Source: Chloroflexota bacterium (GTDB taxonomy: Bacteria > Chloroflexota > Dehalococcoidia > Lucifugimonadales > Australimonadaceae). Taken from it: 39,681 nt of DNA. The translations under genes were made by a program, and so were the position numbers. The stretch covers positions 1 through 39,681 of the forward strand of contig JAPPHT010000037.1 of the NCBI GenBank assembly GCA_028874795.1, written 5' to 3'. Positions within the stretch are counted from its first letter, which is position 1. Every line of letters begins with the position of its first letter. The notes below the pieces were generated by a model. It did no database searches. It was not told the origin of the DNA and was given only the letters and a program-made list of their open reading frames with translations. Positions 2,251 to 22,437 of this stretch are shown here, one piece after another.

Positions 2251-3027
2251 ATGTCACGCGAACTCGACGAAGTCAAACGGGAAGTCGCCATCGCAAACCG
2301 CATCCTGGCGGAGATGGGGCTCGCCACGCACATCCTCGCCTCACTCGGACACGCCAGCCTGCGCGTGCCCAACCAGCCCGACCTCTTCGTGGTGAAGGGA
2401 CGCGGCTATGAGACCGACGCCCTGCACGTCGTCCACCCCGAGGAGATGATCGTCGTCGACATGGACGGCAACTTCGTGGACGGCCCCAAGGGCACCTCGC
2501 AGTGCTACGAGGTCAAGATGCACTCGTGCATCTACCGGGAGCGCCCGGACGTCCTCTCCATCGTCCACACGCACCCCCGCTTCACCAACGTGCTCGGCCT
2601 GAACGACGTGAAGCTCAAGCCCCTCTCCAACGAGGGCCACCAGCTGGTACGAGACGACATCCCCGTCTTCCCGCACTCGAAGCTCATCATCACTGAGGAG
2701 GACGGCATGCAGGTTGTCGACGCCATCGGGAAGAGCGCCGTCCTCCTGCTCCGCGGACACGGCGCCGTGACGACAGGCCGCAGCCTCGAGCAGTCGGTGA
2801 TGAACATGCTGCACCTGGAGGAGCAGTCGCGTCTCAACTGGATCGCGCTCGCCGCGTTCGGACCGGACTACAAGGGCACTCCCCCGGAGGACATGGACGA
2901 GTTCGCCGCAGGCCAGGCCGCGATGCGGGAGGCGCCGCACCTTGCGCGGCCGCTCGCGAACATGCCGCCCATCCTGGTCGGTGGCGTCTGGAAGTACTAC
3001 ACGGAGCTTGTCAGCAAGGACCTGTAG
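2251..3027 (+). CDS. Class II aldolase/adducin family protein
   Basis: A 258-residue cytoplasmic protein of the class II aldolase fold. These Zn-dependent enzymes cleave or decarboxylate small hydroxy-acid or sugar-phosphate substrates. Metal ligands are visible as VHTHPRF (His106, His108) and LLLRGHGAV (His170), with a candidate acid/base Glu87 in SQCYEVKMH. Length is normal. ATG 2251 has GGAGG just upstream; the frame is open further back (2188) but without a ribosome site. It could be an L-fuculose-phosphate-aldolase-like enzyme or a decarboxylase of aromatic acids; the substrate cannot be read from sequence. No sugar kinase or isomerase lies next to it, so it stands alone. Confidence 0.85.
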   Translation: MSRELDEVKREVAIANRILAEMGLATHILASLGHASLRVPNQPDLFVVKGRGYETDALHVVHPEEMIVVDMDGNFVDGPKGTSQCYEVKMHSCIYRERPDVLSIVHTHPRFTNVLGLNDVKLKPLSNEGHQLVRDDIPVFPHSKLIITEEDGMQVVDAIGKSAVLLLRGHGAVTTGRSLEQSVMNMLHLEEQSRLNWIALAAFGPDYKGTPPEDMDEFAAGQAAMREAPHLARPLANMPPILVGGVWKYYTELVSKDL

Positions 3028-3068
3028 CGCGCGGCAGCGGCGGCGTCCTCGCGGACGCTCAGGCGTGA

Positions 3069-3097
3069 TTGAGCGTCCGCCTGTAAGGATGTAAGAT
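3069..3097 (+). promoter_or_regulatory. Predicted promoter of the AbrB/MazE-like gene
   Basis: TTGAGC (3069-3074) and TAAGAT (3092-3097) are separated by exactly 17 nt. Transcription would start near 3104, inside the palindrome described in the next entry. Confidence 0.55.
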
Positions 3098-3122
3098 CTC
3101 CTTGTATCCTTACTACAAGGAG
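3083..3122. promoter_or_regulatory. Two interlocking inverted repeats over promoter and ribosome site
   Basis: A perfect 9-bp inverted repeat, CTCCTTGTA (3098-3106) and TACAAGGAG (3114-3122), has a 7-nt centre. Its right arm contains the ribosome binding site of the gene at 3128. A second inverted repeat, GTAAGGAT (3083-3090) and ATCCTTAC (3106-3113), uses that centre as its right arm. They overlap the -10 box and predicted start site, the classic place for an autorepressor operator. AbrB/MazE-type antitoxins commonly repress their own promoters, so the gene product is the likely ligand (inference). Confidence 0.6.
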
Positions 3123-3127
3123 TCGCC

Positions 3128-3466
3128 ATGCTCGCCAAGCTGACCTCCAAGAACCAGATAACCCTGCCAAAGGCGATCATCTCCGCTTTCAAGGGCACGG
3201 AGTACTTTGACGTCACCCAGGAGGAAGGGCGCATCGTGCTCGCGCCGATGCGGGTGACCCCAGCCAAGACCTGGTCGCTCGCCGACGCCGAGGCTTACGT
3301 GGAGAAGATGAGGCGGTTGCGGATGCCGCTGGACACCACCGATCCGGAGGTCTGGCTGGAGCGCATGAACACCGACCGGTCCGAGGCCATCTGGGAGAAA
3401 ATGGACCGGCTTGGCATCACCGAGCAGGACATCGCTGACGCGATCGAGTGGGCGCGGCGAGGTTGA
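3128..3466 (+). CDS. AbrB/MazE-type swapped-hairpin antitoxin-like DNA-binding protein
   Basis: A 112-residue protein whose first 45 residues form an AbrB/SpoVT beta-hairpin DNA-binding domain (LTSKNQITLPKAI, then EEGRIVLAPM). The rest is helical and acidic, as in antitoxins that hold a PIN-domain toxin. AAGGAG lies 5 nt before the ATG. No toxin follows: after the stop at 3466 there is only repeat DNA to 3854. So this is either a lone antitoxin, an independent regulator, or what remains of a module whose toxin was lost. The palindromes upstream support autoregulation. Confidence 0.82.
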   Translation: MLAKLTSKNQITLPKAIISAFKGTEYFDVTQEEGRIVLAPMRVTPAKTWSLADAEAYVEKMRRLRMPLDTTDPEVWLERMNTDRSEAIWEKMDRLGITEQDIADAIEWARRG

Positions 3467-3854
3467 TGGCCCCGCTATACTTGCGCTCCATGAGCGACCT
3501 TCGCATAACTCTCATCGCACCCCACACTCCGCCGATTCACCCTCTCCCTAACCCTCTCCCCTCCAGAGAGAGGGGATCAGGCGCCCGACTCCCCCACCTC
3601 CGCAGGGCCCTCACCCTAACCCTCTCCCTCAGGAGAGGGGACCAAACCACCTCACCCCACCGGTTCAGCCCCATCCCCGCATCACGTGCGGGGCAGGCTC
3701 TAACCTTACGCGTGCCCACGCCGTGTGCGTTGTCCGGCGCACGTGCAACCTATCGGTTGCTTGGGATTCCCGCCGGTGCGGGAATGACGAGGACTGCGTC
3801 CCCGTTTGCAAGGGGCGAGGTTCCTGCCTCCGCAGGAACGACGGGGGCTGCGCC
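3467..3854. repeat. Intergenic repeat cluster
   Basis: No gene supported. Two CCTCTCCC/GGAGAGGGG hairpins (about 3541-3573 and 3608-3641) are followed by the CCCCGCATCACGTGCGGGG unit with tail CAGGCTCTAACC (about 3674-3704). Two REP-like hairpins come next: GATTCCCGCCGGTGCGGGAATGACG near 3766-3790 and GTTCCTGCCTCCGCAGGAACGACGG near 3820-3844. The last one abuts the start of the next gene, so it may influence its translation. Confidence 0.65.
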
Positions 3855-6077: not shown

Positions 6078-7821
6078 ATGACGGACCCGACAAGACCGAC
6101 GTACCGACGGATGACGGATATCGTGAGCAAGCCGTTGCTGCTCCTGGCCCTGGCCCGCCCTGGCGGCATTGGCGCTCGCCTGCAGCGCTGAACCCACCGC
6201 GACGCCGGTACCGACCGCCACCCCTGTGCCGGCGCCTACGGCCACCCCGACACCGGAGCCCGCTCAGTCTGACGAAGACCTGACCCGTGCCTTCGTAACA
6301 AAGGCCATTGACTACTACGGAACGAACGGGCTGGACGCCACTGTCGAGTTCTACAGGTCCGCGGCGAGCATCGAAGACGGCAGAATGCTGATCCTCATAG
6401 ACGAGGCCGAAAGCCTGCTGCTGGTCTACCAGCCAATACCAGCTTTGGTGGGCCAATATGTCGGCCCGGGTTCGCGATTCGCGTTCGGCGGGTTGATCGA
6501 CCTTGCCACCGAAAGTGGTGGAGGTGGTGGCTGGGTCACGACCCGGGGCATCAACCCGGCTACCAAGCAGGAAGAGCCGCGGCGGGTCCTCGCCGTCCTG
6601 CACGACGGTCTCGTGTTCTCCGCCAGCCATTCGGCCCTCGTGGAAGACATCGCGGACTCAACCCAGGAGTACGTGACCAAAGCCATAGACAGGTACAACA
6701 GCGAGGGCCTCGATGCGGTCATCGCTCACTACAACAGCCAGGACAGCCTGGACGGGCAGTTCTACCTGTTCCTCATCGGAGCGGACGACCTCTACCTGGC
6801 CCACCCCATCTTCCCTCACCTCATCGGCACCGACATCAAGGACGTGGTCGGCTCCGACGGTCAGGAGTTGGGTGAAGAGATAGCCCAAGCCACCGGGGAA
6901 GGCGCGTGGGTCGAGTACCTGTGGCCTCATCCGGTCTCCCGAAGGGAACAGCAGAAGGTCACCTGGGCTATCCGGCACGACGGGCTGATATTCGCCTCCG
7001 GCTACTACGCAGGCGAGCCCGAAACAGCCGACCCGGCCTGGCGTGACGCCGACCCCATGGAGTACACGGTCGAGTTCGTGGAGCGGGCCATAGAGCGCTA
7101 CGAGCGCGACGGTCTGGACGCGATGCTCAACTACTACAACAGCGTTGCCAGCTTCGAGGGCGAGTGGTACCTGTTCGCCACCGACGACTCCGACATCTAC
7201 CACGTGCACCCGCTGCTGCCGCATCTCATAGGGACGGACATCAAGGACGTGGTCGGCTCCGACGGCTACGAGCTGGGCAAGGAGCTGGCCCGGGCCACCG
7301 AGGAGGGAGTCTGGGTGGAGTACCTGTGGCCCCACCCGGTAACGCTCAAGGAGGTCCCCAAGGTGGGGTACGCGGTGAGGCGGGACGGGATGCTCTTCGC
7401 GTCCGGCTACTACGTGCGCGCCCAAGACCCCGCGGGCCGGACCGTCGACTACGTGCAGGAGGCCATCGACTACTACGAGGCCAACGGGCAGGACGCTACG
7501 GTCAGCCACTACAGCAGCGAGGGCAGCTTCGACGGCCAGTGGAACCTGACCCTGACCGATGAGAACGACATCCTCCTGACCTCTCCCCTCGCCCAACACC
7601 TCGTAGGCACCGACCTGAAGGACGTCGGCGCGGGCAGGATCCGGAATATCGGCGAAGAGATGGCAGCGGCCACGGAGGACGGCACCTGGATCAGCTTCGT
7701 CTTCCCCAACACGAGGTCTTCGGAGACCCTGTACGCTCACACGTGGGCCGTGCGCCACGACGGGCTGCTCTTCACGTCGCGCTACTACGACGACCAGCCC
7801 GGCGATCCCGCGACGCCCTAG
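6078..7821 (+). pseudogene. Lipoprotein with four tandem Cache-like sensor domains, frameshifted in its signal peptide
   Basis: The long frame from TTG 6169 encodes a lipobox (LALAC), a Thr/Pro-rich linker and four repeats of about 115 residues at roughly 41-156, 166-281, 300-416 and 425-541 (numbered from 6169). Each repeat has the single-Cache layout: a helix like YVxxAIDYYxxxGLDA, a strand such as GQFYLFLIG, an (A/V)HP then HLIGTDIKDVVGSDG, and WVEYLWPHP ending in a DGLIFASGYY-like strand. Cache domains bind small ligands outside the cell. Five residues cannot form a signal peptide. The overlapping frame from ATG 6078 (or ATG 6111, GTG 6123) gives a basic start and SKPLLLLALA; deleting one C in the run 6154-6156 joins both into a perfect lipoprotein signal. 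It is thus one gene with a 1-nt frameshift (mutation, phase variation or assembly error), and the downstream frame is intact. No transmembrane or signalling output domain is present. Confidence 0.75.
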
Positions 7822-8207: not shown

Positions 8208-9914
8208 TTACTTGTCCACCCGACAACTGATGACGTCTATGCCGTAGTACTTGCGGTGGTGCACCGATGAGGCGTAGTGGCGGAGGATGCGGATGGAGAG
8301 CTCCTGCTCGTCTTCCAGCGCCTGGCCCTCGTCCACGTAGGCCATGCGGTTCTCGATGTTCCCCTGGATGACGTCGTCCGAAGCGACCACGATCTCCAGC
8401 TCGGCGGCGGCGCCTTCGGGGCGGATCGTCGCGACCAGCTTGCGCCTCCGACCGTCCAGGGCGTCGTTCTCTCCCTCCAGAAGGCTCAGCATCACCTCTT
8501 CCCCCACAAGGCGGAGGCGGTCCTTCCCCTCCTCCGTCCAGGAGTGCCTGTCGGCGAACCCGCCGAGGAAATCGTCAACGGCAGGGAGGGAAGACTGCGC
8601 CAGGTCGATCCGCAGTTTCCCTGGACGGGGACTCGAAAGCTCAGTGAACACGGTCATAACCACGGCAGTCATCCCGCCGAAGAAGAGCGTGTTCCCCACC
8701 AATTGACTCGTTATCCCTTCGACGAACCCGCTGAAAGCCCCGGCGGAGAGGCCCAATATTATGGAAACGCCGGCGATGGTGGCCTTCTTCTGGTCAACCC
8801 GGCCTGTGAAGACCGTCTTTGCGCCTTCGACGAAGAGCATGCCGAAGATGATGACGTACACCGCGCTGACCACAGGAGTGGGAATGGCGACCAGTACGGC
8901 AAGCAGCTTGGAAAAGGGGGCCACCAACATGGTCAACAGCCCGAGGTATATCCCAACAGTCTTGGCGGCGACGCCGGTAAAGCCGATGTAGACCACGGTG
9001 GCCGCCCACGGCGCGGCGACGGGCAAGGTCCCCACGAAACCCGATAGCAGGGTGCCCAGACCGTACACGCCCAGACCTCCCTGCACCGAGCGGAAGTCGA
9101 TGGCCGAATGGTCCCGGTAGGAGGCACGGTAGATCACTGACAGGTCCCCCACGGCTTTCATGAATGCGGTCAGGTTCACGAACACGAAGGCCGGAAGCAG
9201 GGCCCAGAAGTCCGCGTCGAAGGTCAGGTCCAACCCGGGCCACCCGAAGTCGGGCAGGCTCACCCATGGAGCGTCAGTGATGATGCCTGCGTCGTAGTAG
9301 CCCAGGGGCACGGCCACTACCAGCCCGGCTGCCACGGTGGCCGGCAGGATCCACATGCGCCATGCCGGGGTCCCTTGCAGGGATATGAAGACCCCGGCGA
9401 CCAGGGCAGCCACCCCCGGCGCCATGAAGAGCATCGTCGATGCGCCTTCCGGCGGAACGACGGCGACGCTTATGACGAAGGGCATGGCCGAAGCCGCCAC
9501 GAGCATGATCACCACCCCGCTCACCGTCTGTGTAAAGACCCGGCGGAGGGAGGCAAGCCGCAAGGTCAGCACGAGCTGCAGGAGCGTGGAAGCCACCAGC
9601 AGGCTCGCCAGCAGACGAGGCCCGCCGGCGTGGAGGGCCAGGGCGCAGACCGTCAGGAACGGAACGTTGAAATTCGTGACGATCAGGCGGCCGGAACCCA
9701 GATACCGAAACCGGAAGGCGTGCAGGACCATGCCGGCCCCGGAGACCACGAGGGCGGCGAATATCGCCCACCCCAGATAGGCTTCGGAATCGTCGGTTGC
9801 GCGTATCACCAGCACCGCCAGCATGACGAGGGCGATGGTGTTGGGTACGAAGATCTGCGCAGCCGACGTCAGCGCCACCGACGGCGGACACTTCTCATCC
9901 GGTTCGTAGCGAAT
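8208..9914 (-). CDS. NCS2-type (nucleobase/ascorbate) permease fused to a C-terminal degenerate GHKL-like domain
   Basis: About 568 residues. The first ~430 contain 12 or more hydrophobic segments in the NCS2 (xanthine/uracil permease) order, e.g. YLGSGRLIVTNFNVPFLTV and VFTQTVSGVVIMLV. The last ~135 are soluble: a helix LRLVGEEVMLSLLEG, a strand ELEIVVAS, then LSIRILRHYASSV and YGIDVISCRVD, reminiscent of the RsbW/HATPase_c_2 fold. The N-box Asn and DxGxG ATP motif are not recognisable, so ATP binding is doubtful. GTG 9878 would clip the N-terminus. Reading back to 9914 restores RYEPDEKCPPS, the usual NCS2 pre-TM1 segment, and GAGGTGA (9927-9921) lies 6 nt before an ATT codon at 9914-9912, so I propose ATT as start. 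Transported substrate unknown. The VOC gene lies about 100 bp upstream on the same strand. Confidence 0.8.
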   Translation of the reverse strand: MRYEPDEKCPPSVALTSAAQIFVPNTIALVMLAVLVIRATDDSEAYLGWAIFAALVVSGAGMVLHAFRFRYLGSGRLIVTNFNVPFLTVCALALHAGGPRLLASLLVASTLLQLVLTLRLASLRRVFTQTVSGVVIMLVAASAMPFVISVAVVPPEGASTMLFMAPGVAALVAGVFISLQGTPAWRMWILPATVAAGLVVAVPLGYYDAGIITDAPWVSLPDFGWPGLDLTFDADFWALLPAFVFVNLTAFMKAVGDLSVIYRASYRDHSAIDFRSVQGGLGVYGLGTLLSGFVGTLPVAAPWAATVVYIGFTGVAAKTVGIYLGLLTMLVAPFSKLLAVLVAIPTPVVSAVYVIIFGMLFVEGAKTVFTGRVDQKKATIAGVSIILGLSAGAFSGFVEGITSQLVGNTLFFGGMTAVVMTVFTELSSPRPGKLRIDLAQSSLPAVDDFLGGFADRHSWTEEGKDRLRLVGEEVMLSLLEGENDALDGRRRKLVATIRPEGAAAELEIVVASDDVIQGNIENRMAYVDEGQALEDEQELSIRILRHYASSVHHRKYYGIDVISCRVDK

Positions 9915-9920
9915 CTCGAC

Positions 9921-9927
9921 TCACCTC
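9921..9927 (-). promoter_or_regulatory. Ribosome binding site that decides the ATT start
   Basis: Minus-strand GAGGTGA is a seven-base match to the consensus and lies 6 nt upstream of ATT (9914). No ATG, GTG or TTG stands at a suitable distance in the correct frame; the in-frame GTG at 9878 is too far away. Confidence 0.55.
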
Positions 9928-10013
9928 AGTGTTCGGAAGGAGTTCCAGGTCAGCGAGGGCGATGCCCTGCGTCCTGCCCTGCCGGGGTGCTGGTCGTCTC
10001 TCTCCATGCGCCC

Positions 10014-10397
10014 TCAGATCTCGTAGATCATCAGGCGGTTGCCGCACGTGTCTTCGAATATGGCCTGCGCGCCGCCAGCGGCATCGATCGGCTTGATCGA
10101 GAACACGACGCCCAGCGCCTCTAAGCGTTCGTACTCAGCCTGGATGTCGTCAACGGCGAACGCCGCTTGCGGGATGCCCTGCTCGAAGAGCGTCTTCTGG
10201 TACACCTGCGCGGCATGGTTGTCGTTCGGCTCCAGGAGGAGTTGGGCGCCGTCCGGCGCCTCCGGCGAGACGACCGTCAGCCACTTGAACTGCCCCACCG
10301 GGAATTCCTCCTTCTTCACGAAGCCCAGCACGCCGGTGTAGAACGCCAGGGCTTTGTCCTGGTCGTCGACGTGGATGCTGGTCAACTCGATCCTCAT
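10014..10397 (-). CDS. VOC (glyoxalase/bleomycin resistance) family protein
   Basis: A 127-residue single-domain vicinal-oxygen-chelate protein. It begins MRIELTSIHVDD with the typical early His, continues KALAFYTGVLGF and ends DTCGNRLMIYEI, with the Glu of the last strand as a probable metal ligand. Members are lyases, isomerases, dioxygenases or binding proteins; the reaction cannot be told from this sequence. GAAGGAG precedes the ATG. It may be co-transcribed with the permease gene downstream, about 100 bp away. Confidence 0.85.
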   Translation of the reverse strand: MRIELTSIHVDDQDKALAFYTGVLGFVKKEEFPVGQFKWLTVVSPEAPDGAQLLLEPNDNHAAQVYQKTLFEQGIPQAAFAVDDIQAEYERLEALGVVFSIKPIDAAGGAQAIFEDTCGNRLMIYEI

Positions 10398-10643
10398 TCA
10401 TGGCTCCTTCGTACGCGGGAGTGCGGTGGGGAGTGTACTACGGCAGGCGCCGGGCGCGTCCCCGCTCCGAGGAAGGGCGCCCACAAGGGACGCTCCTACA
10501 CCAGGCGCCGCCCGGCCACGCACGCCTCGTGCGCTGCCCGCGCACTCTGGATTCCCGCCTGTGCGGGAATGACGGGCAAGGGGGGCGCGGGGTTTGCTAT
10601 GCTACGCGCCGCTATACATCACTACGGCAGGAGTAGAGAGCAT
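10398..10643. repeat. Repeat-containing divergent intergenic region
   Basis: It lies between the divergent VOC and molybdenum-hydroxylase genes. It holds the CACAAGGGACGCTCCTACACC unit (10482-10502), related to the one at 2018, and a REP hairpin GATTCCCGCCTGTGCGGGAATGACGG (about 10549-10574), preceded by the same CGTGCGCTGCCCGCGCACTC stretch found beside other copies. No clear promoter was recognised. Confidence 0.55.
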
Positions 10644-12872
10644 ATGACCACCGCACCACGCGTCGTCGGCGCGCCCGTACCCCGCATCGACGGACGGGAC
10701 AAGGTGACCGGCGCGGCCAACTACGGCGCGGACGTCGACGTCCCGGGGACGCTTTGGGCGAAGACGCTGCGCAGCCCCTTCCCGCATGCCCGCATCCGCG
10801 GCATCGACACGTCCGCCGCGACGGCGCTGCCGGGCGTCCACGCCGTGCTCACGGGCGACGACATCCCCGACAACATGCGCTGGGGCCGCCGCATCGTCGA
10901 CGTGCCCGTGCTCGCGCAGGGCGAGGTGCGCTTCGTCGGCGAGCAGGTCGCGGCGGTCGTTGCGGACGACGAGGAGATCGCACAGCGCGCGCTCGAGCTT
11001 ATCGAGGTCGACTACGAGGAGCTGCCCGCCGTCACCGACCCGGAGGAGGCGATGAAGGACGAGCTTCTCGTCAACCCGGACATGCACGGGTTCAAGGGCC
11101 TGCTCTACGAGATGAGCGAGCCCACGAACACCGTCGTTCACTTCGAGTGGAGCAGAGGCGACGTGGAAGCCGGCATGAAGGAGGCGGACCTGGTCGTCGA
11201 GAACTCTTACACAACACCGTCCCAGCACCAGGTCTACATGGAGGCGCACAACGCGACGGTGCGGGTCAACCCGGACGGGACGGCTGAGGTGTGGACGCCG
11301 GGCAAGGCGCCGTACGCGGTGCGCTCCCAGATATCCGGGCCGCTCGGCGTGGAGCCGGAGAGCATCGTCTTCCACCCGGTCACGATCGGCGGCGACTTCG
11401 GGGGCAAGGGATCGCCGATGAACGTCGCGCTCGGGTACGTGCTGTCGAAGGCGGTCGGCGGCAGGCCGGTCCGGATGGTGTTCGACTACGCGGAGGAGTT
11501 CATGGCCGCGAACCCGCGCCACCACTCCCGGATACGGATGCGCACCGGCGTCAAGCGGGACGGCACGATCACGGCGCACGACGTGGCGATAGTGTTCGAC
11601 AGCGGCGCGTACGCGGGGTTCAAGCCCGCGGGGCACCTCGGCGGCGCAAAGGGCGCGGGCGGACCTTACCGAACGGAAAACGCGCGCGTGGTTGAGGACA
11701 TGGTGTACACGCACAACACGCCGTGCGGTCACATGCGCGGGCCTGGCGAGCCGCAGGCCGTCTTCGCCCTCGAATCGCACATCGATGAGGTCGCCGGGGC
11801 GCTCGGCATGGACCCCGTGCAGTTCCGCCTGATGAACCTCGTCGAAGACGGCGAGCCCACGGCGCTCGGCGACGTGTTCGTTGAGAACCGCGCAACCGAG
11901 ACGCTCGAAGCCGCTGTGGAGGCCTCCGGCTACAACGAGCCGAAGGCGCCCGGCGTCGGCCGGGGCGTGTCCGTGGGCGAGCGGACGCCCGGCGGTGGAC
12001 GCATCAACTCGCAGGTCTCGATGGAGGCGGACGGCTCTGTCCTCATCACGACTCCCCTCTTCGAGCAGGGAGCGGGTGCGTACACGGTGCTGCAGCAGGT
12101 GGTGGCCGAGGACCTCGGGCTCCCCGCCGACGCCGTGCGGATGGTGGTGGCCGACACGGGGCTGTTCGACAACGACCAGGGCGTGGGAGGCAGCCGCGTC
12201 ACGAACCTCGGCACGGTCGCCACGCACGACGCGGTGGAGCAGGCGCAGGGCGAGCTGTTCAAGCTCGCGGCGGAGCTGCAGAACTGGCCGGAGGAGAAGC
12301 TGGAGGTTCGCGGGCAGATGCTCGTGCGCACGGACACCGGGGAGTCGCAGCCGTGGAGCAACCTGATCGCCCGCGTGGGCGTGCCGGTTGTCGGACGCGG
12401 CGTCGCTTCCGGAGGCTACGAGACCCCGGTCACCGGCTACTGCGCGCAGATCGCCGAGGTGGAGGTCGACCAGGAGACGGGGCAGATCCGGCTGACGAAG
12501 CTGACGACGGTCCACGACACGGGCACCATCATCAACCCGATCGGGCACCAGGGGCAGATCAACGGGGGCACGATGATGGGCATCGGCTTCGGGCTGCAGG
12601 AGGAGCTGGTGCGGGAGAACGGCTTCGTCTCCACGCTCTCGTTCGCGGACTACAAGATCCCGAACATCGCCGACATCCCCGAGCTCACGACCGTCGTGCT
12701 CGATACGCCGGGCAAGGGCGTCGGCCCCTACAGCATCAAGGCGATCGGCGAGAGCCCCAACGCGCCAACCGCCGCGGCCATCGCGAACGCCATCGCCGAC
12801 GCCTGCGGCGTGCGCGTGCGGGACCTGCCGGCGACGGCGGAGAAGGTCTACGAGGCGTTGAGGGATGCGTAG
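10644..12872 (+). CDS. Molybdenum hydroxylase (xanthine dehydrogenase family) large subunit
   Basis: A 742-residue molybdopterin-cytosine-dinucleotide-binding subunit of the xanthine oxidase/CO dehydrogenase family. It opens with VGAPVPRIDGRDKVTGAANY, the conserved start of the a/b hammerhead domain. Motifs for cofactor binding include GGDFGGKG and HMRGPGEPQ. The catalytic glutamate is Glu703 in IGESPNAPTAAAIANA near the C-terminus. Length is normal. These subunits hydroxylate N-heterocycles, aldehydes or aromatic-CoA substrates and need a [2Fe-2S] subunit and usually an FAD subunit; neither gene is in the window. It must borrow partners encoded elsewhere or work in an unusual way. GCAGGAG lies upstream of ATG 10644. 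Confidence 0.92.
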   Translation: MTTAPRVVGAPVPRIDGRDKVTGAANYGADVDVPGTLWAKTLRSPFPHARIRGIDTSAATALPGVHAVLTGDDIPDNMRWGRRIVDVPVLAQGEVRFVGEQVAAVVADDEEIAQRALELIEVDYEELPAVTDPEEAMKDELLVNPDMHGFKGLLYEMSEPTNTVVHFEWSRGDVEAGMKEADLVVENSYTTPSQHQVYMEAHNATVRVNPDGTAEVWTPGKAPYAVRSQISGPLGVEPESIVFHPVTIGGDFGGKGSPMNVALGYVLSKAVGGRPVRMVFDYAEEFMAANPRHHSRIRMRTGVKRDGTITAHDVAIVFDSGAYAGFKPAGHLGGAKGAGGPYRTENARVVEDMVYTHNTPCGHMRGPGEPQAVFALESHIDEVAGALGMDPVQFRLMNLVEDGEPTALGDVFVENRATETLEAAVEASGYNEPKAPGVGRGVSVGERTPGGGRINSQVSMEADGSVLITTPLFEQGAGAYTVLQQVVAEDLGLPADAVRMVVADTGLFDNDQGVGGSRVTNLGTVATHDAVEQAQGELFKLAAELQNWPEEKLEVRGQMLVRTDTGESQPWSNLIARVGVPVVGRGVASGGYETPVTGYCAQIAEVEVDQETGQIRLTKLTTVHDTGTIINPIGHQGQINGGTMMGIGFGLQEELVRENGFVSTLSFADYKIPNIADIPELTTVVLDTPGKGVGPYSIKAIGESPNAPTAAAIANAIADACGVRVRDLPATAEKVYEALRDA

Positions 12873-19412: not shown

Positions 19413-20717
19413 TCAGGCGTTCCGCAGGCTCTCCGCCTGTCTCTCGATCCGCTCCTCCACGGTCATGTTGAAGAGGCGCTCGCCCTCCTGGCGGTCGACG
19501 ACGGCGACGACGCCCGGCAGCGGGACCATCTCCTCCGCCTCAGGTCCCCTGACGATACCGATGGGGTCGATGCCGTCCTGCATCCTGGCCAGCTGTTCCT
19601 TCCACAGCCGGTGCATGAGCAGCACTCCCCTGTCGGATGAGCCGAAGGTCATCTTCTCGAAGTCAGGGAAGCCGCCGCGCTCCTCGCGGCCCTGACTGCT
19701 CATGGTCACTTCGTCCTCCCAGATGGGGCCCTGGCGCAGCGGATGGCCGAAGTTCCACCAGTAGCCGACGTCCTCCACCCAGCCCTCGTAGAACGGACCG
19801 CCCGAGTCGAGCGGACGGTCGGCCTGGAACCGTCGCAGTGCGGCCTCGCTGACCTGGCCGCTCTCGTCGAAGGGCTCGAAGTGCACGCCGAACCAGCGAG
19901 TCGAGAAGTCGTCGATCGGCACGGCCCAGTTCATGGTGTCGGTCCGGGCGCGCTGGCACGGGAGCACCGCATGCGTTTCGTGGTACTCGTAAAGTCCCTT
20001 CGTCCGGGTGTTCTGGAGCGTCACGTAGCAGGCGCCCCATGGGGTTTCCTCGAACTTGATGGGGGTTGGCGGGTCGCCGTCACGGCCATGGTGGAAGCCG
20101 TGGACGGGCTCGACGCCCTTGAACCACCCGTGCGCGATCTCGCGGTGCCAGACATCGAGGACGTTGTCGAGGGTCTGCAGCAGCGCATTCGACCTCTGTA
20201 TGCGGTTGCCCTTGCCCGCGACGCGGAGGCCGTCCTTACGGAACAGGATGGGGTAGCGGGGGAACGGCGGCTGCAACTCCGGGGGGCCCATGTAGGCGAA
20301 GATCAGCCCGCCGACCTCGACGCACGGGTACGAGGGGTGTTTCACGGACGCCCTAAAGCGGTCGTTCGTCTCCGCCGGCATCTCCAGGCAACTGCCGTCG
20401 CGGTCGTACAGCCAGCCGTGGTAGAGACACCGCAGGCCGTTGTCCTCGACGCGTCCGTAAGAGAGTGACACGCCCCGATGAGAGCAGTGGTCGGCCAGGA
20501 GGCCCGGCCTGCCGCTGGCGTCGCGGAAAAGCACGAGGGTCTCGCCGAGCACCTTGAGCTTCACAGGGTTCTTCGCGCTCGGGACGACGTGTCCGCGCCC
20601 GCCGTCCAGGTTCGCCGAGGTCTCGACGGGCAGCCAGTAGCGCCGGAAGAGATCTCCCGACGGTGTTCCGGGCCCCATCCTGAAGATCTGGTCGCCTTCC
20701 TCGTTGCTGAATGCCAT
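19413..20717 (-). CDS. Rieske non-haem iron oxygenase, alpha subunit
   Basis: A 434-residue ring-hydroxylating-type oxygenase. The Rieske [2Fe-2S] site is Cys78-x-His80 and Cys97-x2-His100 (DHCSHRG ... CLYHGW). The mononuclear iron site is DNVLDVWHREIAH, giving Asp188, His191 and His196. This resembles O-demethylase/phthalate-type single-subunit oxygenases. It needs a ferredoxin reductase, which is not encoded nearby. ATG 20717 follows AGGAGGGTG; the open frame to 20924 is not coding. It is divergent from the two racemase-like genes, sharing a 176-bp control region, which suggests a common pathway. Confidence 0.9.
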   Translation of the reverse strand: MAFSNEEGDQIFRMGPGTPSGDLFRRYWLPVETSANLDGGRGHVVPSAKNPVKLKVLGETLVLFRDASGRPGLLADHCSHRGVSLSYGRVEDNGLRCLYHGWLYDRDGSCLEMPAETNDRFRASVKHPSYPCVEVGGLIFAYMGPPELQPPFPRYPILFRKDGLRVAGKGNRIQRSNALLQTLDNVLDVWHREIAHGWFKGVEPVHGFHHGRDGDPPTPIKFEETPWGACYVTLQNTRTKGLYEYHETHAVLPCQRARTDTMNWAVPIDDFSTRWFGVHFEPFDESGQVSEAALRRFQADRPLDSGGPFYEGWVEDVGYWWNFGHPLRQGPIWEDEVTMSSQGREERGGFPDFEKMTFGSSDRGVLLMHRLWKEQLARMQDGIDPIGIVRGPEAEEMVPLPGVVAVVDRQEGERLFNMTVEERIERQAESLRNA

Positions 20718-20893: not shown

Positions 20894-21655
20894 ATGACAT
20901 CGGTCCAGACCGGCCCCTACGCATGGCGAGCGCGAGCAGGCATGATCACGCCGTCCGGCGTTCACGAGATGAACTCGTTCGAGTTCTACCTGATGGCGCC
21001 TCCCGGCGTCAGCGTGGCGATGACGTCGCTGCACACCAGGGGCTGGGGTCCGGACATCGACTCCTTCGTGCGTCTCGAAGAGGCCACGCAGGAGATCGCG
21101 GAGCGGGGCGTCGGCTCGCTGGTGCAGGCCGGGACCCCGCACGTCGTTCACCGTGAGTGGCCCTACCACCGGGTCATCGTGGAGCGGATCAACGCCGTCA
21201 CGAACATCCCGGCGAGCACGGACATCGGCGCGTGCATGGACGCGATGCAGCGTCTCGGCATGTCCAGGGTCGTGCTGCTGAGCCCGTTCAGGGACCCGGA
21301 CAACGAGGCGCTCACGGCCTACGTGTCCCACGCGGGGATCGAGGTCGTCGCGTGGGACTCGATCCTGGACCACGTGGTGGGCGCCACGGGGAACTTCATG
21401 TACGACATCGCGACGCTGCCGCTGTCGACGGTCTACGCGGCGGCCCGGAGACTCTACGCCGCGAACGCAGACCGAGCCGACGGGATATGGATCACGGGCG
21501 CCGCGATGCCCAGCGTCGGCATCGTCGAAGCGCTCGAGGGGGACGCCGGGGCGCCAGTCGTCAGCAGCATGCAGGCGATGGCGTGGACGGGCATGCGGCT
21601 CGCCGGGCTGAGCCAACGCATCGAAGGCTTCGGGCGGCTCGTGCGGGAGTTCTAG
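20894..21655 (+). CDS. Asp/Glu racemase-superfamily (maleate isomerase / arylmalonate decarboxylase-like) protein, first paralogue
   Basis: A 253-residue two-lobed protein of the maleate isomerase/arylmalonate decarboxylase family, with landmarks GMITPSG, FEFYLMAP, LGMSRVVLLSPF and APVVSSMQAMAWTGMRLAG. The two positions where relatives carry catalytic Cys read LVQAGTPHVV (about 77-86) and WITGAAMPS (199-207), so both cysteines are absent. Its only Cys (114, GACMDAM) is in a helix elsewhere. AAGGAGAGG precedes ATG 20894. A 17-bp gap leads to a second paralogue with the same substitutions, so the pair probably forms an operon and perhaps a heteromer. Confidence 0.82.
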   Translation: MTSVQTGPYAWRARAGMITPSGVHEMNSFEFYLMAPPGVSVAMTSLHTRGWGPDIDSFVRLEEATQEIAERGVGSLVQAGTPHVVHREWPYHRVIVERINAVTNIPASTDIGACMDAMQRLGMSRVVLLSPFRDPDNEALTAYVSHAGIEVVAWDSILDHVVGATGNFMYDIATLPLSTVYAAARRLYAANADRADGIWITGAAMPSVGIVEALEGDAGAPVVSSMQAMAWTGMRLAGLSQRIEGFGRLVREF

Positions 21656-21672
21656 ACAAGGGGAGAGGCATC

Positions 21673-22437
21673 GTGGGAGTAGCACACACGCCAGGCAGGC
21701 CGTACGGCTGGCGAGCGCGCATAGGCCTCCTCCAGCCGGGCATCATTTCCGACACCAACCCGTTCGAGTTCTACATGATGGCCCCTGAGGGCGTGCAGAT
21801 GGTGCTCACGTCGCTCGGCCTTGGCGGCATGTCCGTGGCCAACTACGAACGCGCGCTGGCCGGCCTGGAAGGCCCGGTGGAGCGCCTGCTCCCCCGCAAA
21901 CCGAACGCGATCATCCAGACAGGCATCCCTCCGCTGGTGCACGCCGGATGGGGCGTGGAGGCGGAGCTCCGGGAGCGCGTAGCGAGGCTGACGCCCGTGC
22001 CTTACATCACAGACGCAGCGGGCAGCATCGCGGCGATGAAGGCGGTAGGGATACGCCGAGTAGTCGTCGTGAGCGCCTTTGAGGACCCCCTGCCCGACCT
22101 CATCAAGAGCTACCTTGCCCATGCGAAGGTGGAGATGGTTGGGCACGTCAACGCGGCGGCAGGTTCCGACCTCGAGAGCGGAGAGTTACCGCTCCTGACG
22201 GTGTATGAGGCTGCCCGCTCTGTTTTCGAGGAGCACGCAGCAGAGGCCGACGGCATCTGGATCACGCAGGCGTCGATGCCCAGCGCCGGGGTCATCGCGG
22301 AACTGGAGCGAGACCTCGGTGTCCCGGCCGTATCGAGCGCCCAGGCGCTGATGTGGGCGGGGCTGCGACTCGCGGGGATCAGCGACCGCATCGACGGTTT
22401 CGGCCGGTTGTTCGACGTTCCGGAGTTCGGCGCTTAG
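21673..22437 (+). CDS. Asp/Glu racemase-superfamily protein, second paralogue
   Basis: A 254-residue paralogue of the preceding gene, sharing PYGWRARIGLLQPG, FEFYMMAPEGVQM, ADGIWIT, MPS and AVSSAQALMWAGLRLAG. The catalytic-cysteine sites read IIQTGIPPLVH and WITQASMPSAG: no Cys, but the same Q-x-G-x-P and WIT-x-A-x-MPS patterns as its neighbour. There is no cysteine at either site, so the usual two-base thiol mechanism is excluded. GTG 21673 with GGAGAGG upstream is the likely start; the frame is open back to 21157 over the first gene. Confidence 0.82.
   Translation: MGVAHTPGRPYGWRARIGLLQPGIISDTNPFEFYMMAPEGVQMVLTSLGLGGMSVANYERALAGLEGPVERLLPRKPNAIIQTGIPPLVHAGWGVEAELRERVARLTPVPYITDAAGSIAAMKAVGIRRVVVVSAFEDPLPDLIKSYLAHAKVEMVGHVNAAAGSDLESGELPLLTVYEAARSVFEEHAAEADGIWITQASMPSAGVIAELERDLGVPAVSSAQALMWAGLRLAGISDRIDGFGRLFDVPEFGA

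Follow-up and report, generated by a model that had tools for sequence, protein, structure and literature searches.

Adjacent Amdase-family genes lacking both catalytic cysteines in a Chloroflexota bacterium

Two tandem genes with an Amdase-type fold

The window analysed here (the whole 39,681-nt stretch of Chloroflexota DNA) carries two adjacent Amdase-family genes, referred to as A and B, which are co-directional and probably expressed as a single transcript, together with a Rieske oxygenase gene divergent from A (Table 1).

Table 1. Genes and key residues at the A-B locus (positions within the window)
Feature	Position	Strand	Remarks
Rieske oxygenase gene	19413..20717	-	434 aa from ATG at 20717; divergent neighbour of A
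Gene A	20894..21655	+	Amdase family, 253 aa, ATG start; lacks both catalytic cysteines; sole cysteine Cys114
A first-cysteine site, Q78-A-G80-T-P82	21125..21139	+	AMDase 72-76; Gly at 74, Pro at 76
A Asp110	21221..21223	+	AMDase 104; clade-specific acid at end of strand 107-109; candidate acid/base
A Cys114	21233..21235	+	AMDase 108; only cysteine of A; helix 110-120
A Phe132	21287..21289	+	AMDase Tyr126 dioxyanion-hole site
A Gly202	21497..21499	+	AMDase Cys188 site
A/B spacer	21656..21672	+	17 bp, from gene coordinates
Gene B	21673..22437	+	Amdase family, 254 aa, GTG start; no cysteines
B first-cysteine site, Q82-T-G84-I-P86	21916..21930	+	
B Asp114	22012..22014	+	Counterpart of A Asp110
B Gln199	22267..22269	+	AMDase Cys188 site

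The two proteins share 44 % identity and are full-length members of PF17645 (Amdase; A 85.6 bits, B 77.1 bits, Pfam gathering cut-off 25.9), a fold family within which we assign them to a cysteine-less subfamily. AlphaFold2 models built from 60-row alignments returned mean pLDDT values of 93.8 (A) and 95.5 (B), and the greater part of each predicted structure matched AMDase and maleate isomerase (Z about 28-31; 3ixl, 2xed, 3dg9 and 4fq5 at Z about 30) and allantoin racemase (3qvj) at Z about 17. The PF17645 scores and the models thus bear out a sequence-only reading of this locus, which had proposed that both paralogues keep a racemase-type fold.

The closest PDB sequence match of A, and its top Foldseek match, is 4ix1 (E value 3.6e-15), a hypothetical protein from Rhodococcus opacus (OPAG_01669). 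It shares with A a Q-x-G-T-P first site and an S-G-A-A second site, with cysteine at neither; it differs, however, in having Tyr at 126 and a Met where A has Asp110, and in belonging to another clade together with two other proteins (support 100). A search of the open PMC literature yielded no paper that names 4ix1 or OPAG_01669. The top PDB sequence match of B is AMDase (EC 4.1.1.76; 3dg9, 3ixl; E value 3.6e-16), with which A and B share the whole fold and Gly at 74, but only 22-26 % identity.

Replacement of the catalytic residues

Maleate cis-trans isomerase (2xed, 4fq5), which shares the whole fold with A and B, has two catalytic cysteines, and ligand-bound C194S and C200A mutants of it appear among PDB titles. 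Both cysteines are essential in OpaE, and in Asp/Glu/hydantoin racemases a cysteine pair forms the catalytic dyad (PMC12661438). In AMDase the proton donor is Cys188, Gly74 stands in place of the second cysteine, and the dioxyanion hole comprises T75, S76, Y126 and G189 (PMC4996985); shifting the AMDase cysteine lowers activity on alkenyl substrates (PMC6563808).

Both catalytic cysteines are absent from A and B, as had been noted from the sequence. HMMER alignments against AMDase and 4ix1 were gap-free around the sites and agreed with a MAFFT alignment of 175 rows, placing Gly80 and Gly202 of A, and Gly84 and Gln199 of B, at AMDase positions 74 and 188; Gly74 is therefore kept, and the sole proton donor of AMDase is replaced. 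The two motifs reported earlier as substitutes, Q-x-G-x-P and WIT-x-A-x-MPS, were recovered in both proteins (A, QAGTP and WITGAAMPS; B, QTGIP and WITQASMPS), and in the AlphaFold2 model of A the site residues lie shortly after strands 75-78 and 197-200. The AMDase dioxyanion-hole residues T75/S76/Y126/G189 correspond to Thr/Pro/Phe/Ala in A and Ile/Pro/Phe/Ala in B. As S76, Y126 and G189 are all replaced in both proteins, the change exceeds two residues and affects most of the described catalytic apparatus; the original observation on the missing cysteines is right and understated.

Misplacement of a cysteine in the alignment would have undone this result; B, however, has none to misplace, and Cys114 of A sits in a helix, at neither site. 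Given its presence in most of the related proteins described below, a role for Cys114 in A-type proteins is possible.

Scores against three related families fell short of their cut-offs. NCBIfam AMDase equivalog NF052327 returned 77.7 bits for A and 80.9 for B (cut-off 225), and the second NCBIfam match, EutA of ectoine utilisation (TIGR02990), covered the C-terminal part with 57.4 and 66 bits (cut-off 318). Asp/Glu/hydantoin racemases (PF01177, e.g. 3qvj) have the same two-domain superfamily fold as A and B, but A and B lack their cysteine pair and fall under the PF01177 cut-off of 31 (27.4 and 24.5 bits). Since the dioxyanion hole is also rebuilt, A and B should not be named AMDase or maleate isomerase, nor are they to be filed as racemases.

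We counted as clade members the 18 sequences with at least 36.5 % identity to A in the alignment, excluding L013; L053, from a Gemmatimonadetes-labelled bin, is a fragment too short for this count. In the careful tree, 17 rows of the clade grouped together with 100/100 support, L012 having been omitted from trees for its odd motif residues, which may reflect sequencing error. Chloroflexota, together with bins that carry the labels Binatia, Deltaproteobacteria or Dehalococcoidia, supplied the members, which share QxGxP, Phe132, Asp110 and WIT-x-A. Pro82, Phe132 and Trp199 are invariant (18/18 each), and Gly202 is present in 16/18, with Gln in B and L052. Gln78 occurs in 17 of the 18, at a position where 56/57 two-cysteine proteins have Tyr or Phe. 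Asp110 is equally frequent (17/18; Ser in L051), at a position occupied by Thr in 51/57 two-cysteine proteins, and Asp is not among the four commonest residues of that column in the other groups. Cys114 is found in 15/18 clade members versus 5/57 two-cysteine proteins, and is replaced by Ser in B, L052 and L051.

Across ten close pairs dN/dS was 0.07-0.32, indicating purifying selection, with a value of 0.09 for A and its 90 % orthologue (A/L009); the values for A/L010 (0.76) and A/B (0.64) belong to pairs so diverged that the simple method is uninformative. The near-invariant clade residues and the low dN/dS make decay unlikely, and the earlier suggestion that the substitutes were conserved by selection now extends from two proteins to the whole clade. 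In the tree, B groups with L052 (100/97) and A with copies other than B, which speaks against a recent tandem duplication; the AU test, however, does not reject a grouping of A (with L009) and B (p 0.131).

Cysteine loss and gene neighbourhoods among relatives

Non-identical relatives were drawn from Chloroflexota, Binatia-type, proteobacterial, archaeal and plasmid loci, and filtering out proteins of <190 aa and same-core copies reduced them from 210 to 207 to 172. In this sample, which is biased towards A/B relatives, 57 proteins have both cysteines, 39 the second only, 4 the first only and 72 neither, the 4fq5 fragment being omitted from trees and group counts; 25 of the 72 have no cysteine anywhere in the aligned core. 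The 72 include L094 1333-2160, a relative of the host's C1 copy, which has a cysteine at 187, one residue before the usual site. The host genome itself encodes seven PF17645 members, six without both cysteines and one (C70) with both. In a 98-row tree computed with the site columns excluded, accounting for the neither-cysteine state took 13 changes, of which well-supported branches force a minimum of 3. Loss of both cysteines is therefore recurrent and extends over more than one phylum; it is old, preserved by selection and widespread among relatives, and no local oddity. Pro at position 76 occurs in 0/57 two-cysteine, 24/39 second-only and 63/72 neither-cysteine proteins, as if Gly74-x-Pro76 had arisen first and Cys188 had been lost later. 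We found no papers on cysteine-less Amdase-family members in the open PMC literature.

L055 5913-6713 encodes a PF01177 hydantoin-racemase-like protein that, by eye, seemingly lacks both cysteine motifs; its gene immediately precedes a Cys-less Amdase gene (6710-7465), and an MmgE/PrpD gene follows. On an Acidovorax plasmid (L121 5992-12708), a two-cysteine Amdase member lies beside a TTT transporter and protocatechuate 4,5-cleavage genes.

The divergent Rieske gene had been taken to suggest a role for A and B in breaking down an oxygenated organic acid; our comparisons do not support the link with this Rieske gene. Orthologues of this Rieske gene (77-80 %) in four same-genus genomes (G002-G005) lie on contigs other than those with clade genes. 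The 90 % orthologue of A (L038, in G002) also has a divergent Rieske gene as its neighbour, though a different one, 33 % identical. Because the host genome has 85 Rieske matches, we estimate that about one gene in 20 would have such a neighbour by chance, and judged by genome counts and orthologue positions the pathway link is weak. Within L038 4674-7838, the Rieske gene divergent from the A orthologue has a LigXa-like C-terminal match and is followed by two NMT1/THI5-like genes. The 3.3-Mb host genome shows a strong expansion of both Rieske (85) and Amidohydro_2 (88) matches. Paralogue expansions described in SAR202 comprise enolase-type racemases, monooxygenases and dioxygenases; in the available part of that paper the racemases belong to the enolase superfamily and the word 'maleate' was not found (PMC6946804).

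In five same-genus genomes, searched with A, no close orthologue of B was found, and the gene after the A orthologue in L038 is not B; the A-B tandem was thus not found in any relative. The gene after B encodes a BNR-repeat protein that also occurs in the Binatia-type loci and belongs to a family for which two genomes gave 13 matching stretches each. Elsewhere in the window (8208-12872), a xanthine/uracil-type permease gene lies near that of a molybdopterin dehydrogenase large subunit, perhaps marking a purine or aldehyde oxidation locus.

In the Binatia-type loci (L044, L045, L046, L047, L048, L049 and the fragment L053), an Amidohydro_2 gene lies directly upstream of the clade gene and an MmgE/PrpD gene is divergent, the family names having been assigned on L047. 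With 88 Amidohydro_2 matches in the host genome and 98 in G269, adjacency to this family as the sole clue is weak. MmgE/PrpD has only four matches in G269, and the recurring trio that includes it is a stronger clue, though the loci are mutually related.

The same-genus Chloroflexota loci (L040, L041, L042, L043 and L022) present a different arrangement, in which hisIE is followed by the clade gene and, after 2-3 bp, by genes for an HbpS-like protein and an HbpS-RidA fusion. The conserved run from hisIE to the fusion gene (about 7240-11130 in L040/L042/L043) is a possible operon and may show the role of the clade. The host his locus (L188; G000:C9, 2312-3766) keeps hisF, HAD, hisIE, HbpS and the fusion gene, but the clade gene is missing: all that is left of it is 47 bp matching its 3' end, and the gap holds a Fic-family gene (2488-3666). 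A third clade copy has therefore been lost from the host, so at least that copy was dispensable. In G001 the HbpS pair is present, and no clade gene was found within the stretch examined.

Same-strand Amdase tandems with gaps of <60 bp, A-B included, make up 8 of the 13 listed neighbouring pairs, from loci partly picked for clustered matches. Others are at L083, L127, L128, L130, L132, L136 and L169, and in some of these the two copies have unlike cysteine states.

Possible functions of A and B

A and B are folded proteins under selection, and we favour, at a probability of roughly 45 %, the interpretation that they work without the family cysteines, most likely as cofactor-free enzymes, lyases or isomerases, that act on small carboxylic acids in catabolism and use non-cysteine proton transfer. 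The 'other chemistry' suggested by the sequence-only reading would be the most likely explanation of the substitutions. Groups other than cysteine would have taken over proton transfer. The leading acid/base candidate would be Asp110 (Asp114 in B), which probably lies where the former active-site cleft opens, and the substrate may be held by Gln78 and remodelled loops. What makes Asp110 the best new candidate is its placement at the end of a strand, shared with the cysteine sites: in the model of A it is the first helix residue after its strand. Aspartate at a helix start is also a common capping residue, and Asp110 could alternatively be a helix cap. Besides the fold, the near-fixed clade residues and the low dN/dS, we counted in favour of this interpretation that genes adjoining clade members are metabolic (Amidohydro_2 and MmgE/PrpD; HbpS-like and HbpS-RidA), and against it the helix-first position of Asp110, Ser110 in L051 and the lost copy at the host his locus. 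A more specific version, which we regard as unlikely, is that A and B represent a subgroup of the Asp/Glu racemase superfamily in which an aspartate-centred site (Asp110 with Gln78) has taken the place of the cysteine pair to catalyse a different cofactor-free reaction, with A and B forming a hetero-oligomer or acting on two substrates.

Replacement of so much of the AMDase apparatus (Cys188, Ser76, Tyr126 and Gly189 are all altered in both proteins) would also be expected if A and B did no catalysis and instead bound ligands or acted as partner subunits, for instance to one another, with fold and pocket kept and the chemistry lost, and the recurrence of close same-strand tandems points the same way. 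We nevertheless consider this somewhat unlikely: the new polar residues Gln78 and Asp110 are nearly fixed, beyond what upkeep of the fold would seem to need, Cys-less single genes are common, and no fixed A-B complex is conserved, since the pair was found in no relative. Continued decarboxylation of malonate-type acids, with the proton coming from water or another side chain and stereochemistry possibly lost, appears quite improbable, although Gly74 is retained, several near relatives keep Cys188 with Gly74, and AMDase decarboxylates its substrate before Cys188 protonates the product (PMC12576825). The dioxyanion hole for the retained carboxylate is altered (S76P, Y126F, G189A), both proteins score far under the AMDase equivalog cut-off, and an AMDase with a moved cysteine (G74C/C188S) is 20,000-fold less active (PMC12576825).

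It is more doubtful still that Cys114, one helical turn past Asp110, has taken over catalysis in A-type proteins, with B-type proteins (Gln199, Ser at 114) as a second variant. The enrichment of Cys114 in the clade, and the presence of Ser at this site in both proteins with Gln at 188 (B and L052), are consistent with such a relocation; however, positions 114/117/118/121 on that helix face are hydrophobic in 0.77, 0.96, 1.00 and 0.97 of rows, which suggests a buried core face, and B has no cysteine at all. Finally, the host his locus, where a 3'-end match alone is left, illustrates that copies can disappear, yet we think it very improbable that A and B are duplicated pseudoenzymes heading for loss, given their open frames, high-confidence folds and low dN/dS, and the occurrence of the same substitutes across Chloroflexota and Binatia-type genomes.

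The superfamily is described in terms of cysteine chemistry, and 72 of the 172 aligned members lack both cysteines; the names 'aspartate/glutamate racemase' and 'maleate cis-trans isomerase' are carried over to members, for instance in plasmid annotations. If A, B and their relatives are enzymes, a large set of proteins annotated as 'racemases' in uncultured organic-matter degraders does something else, and the family would be a test case for how a fold swaps its acid-base groups while the pocket is kept.
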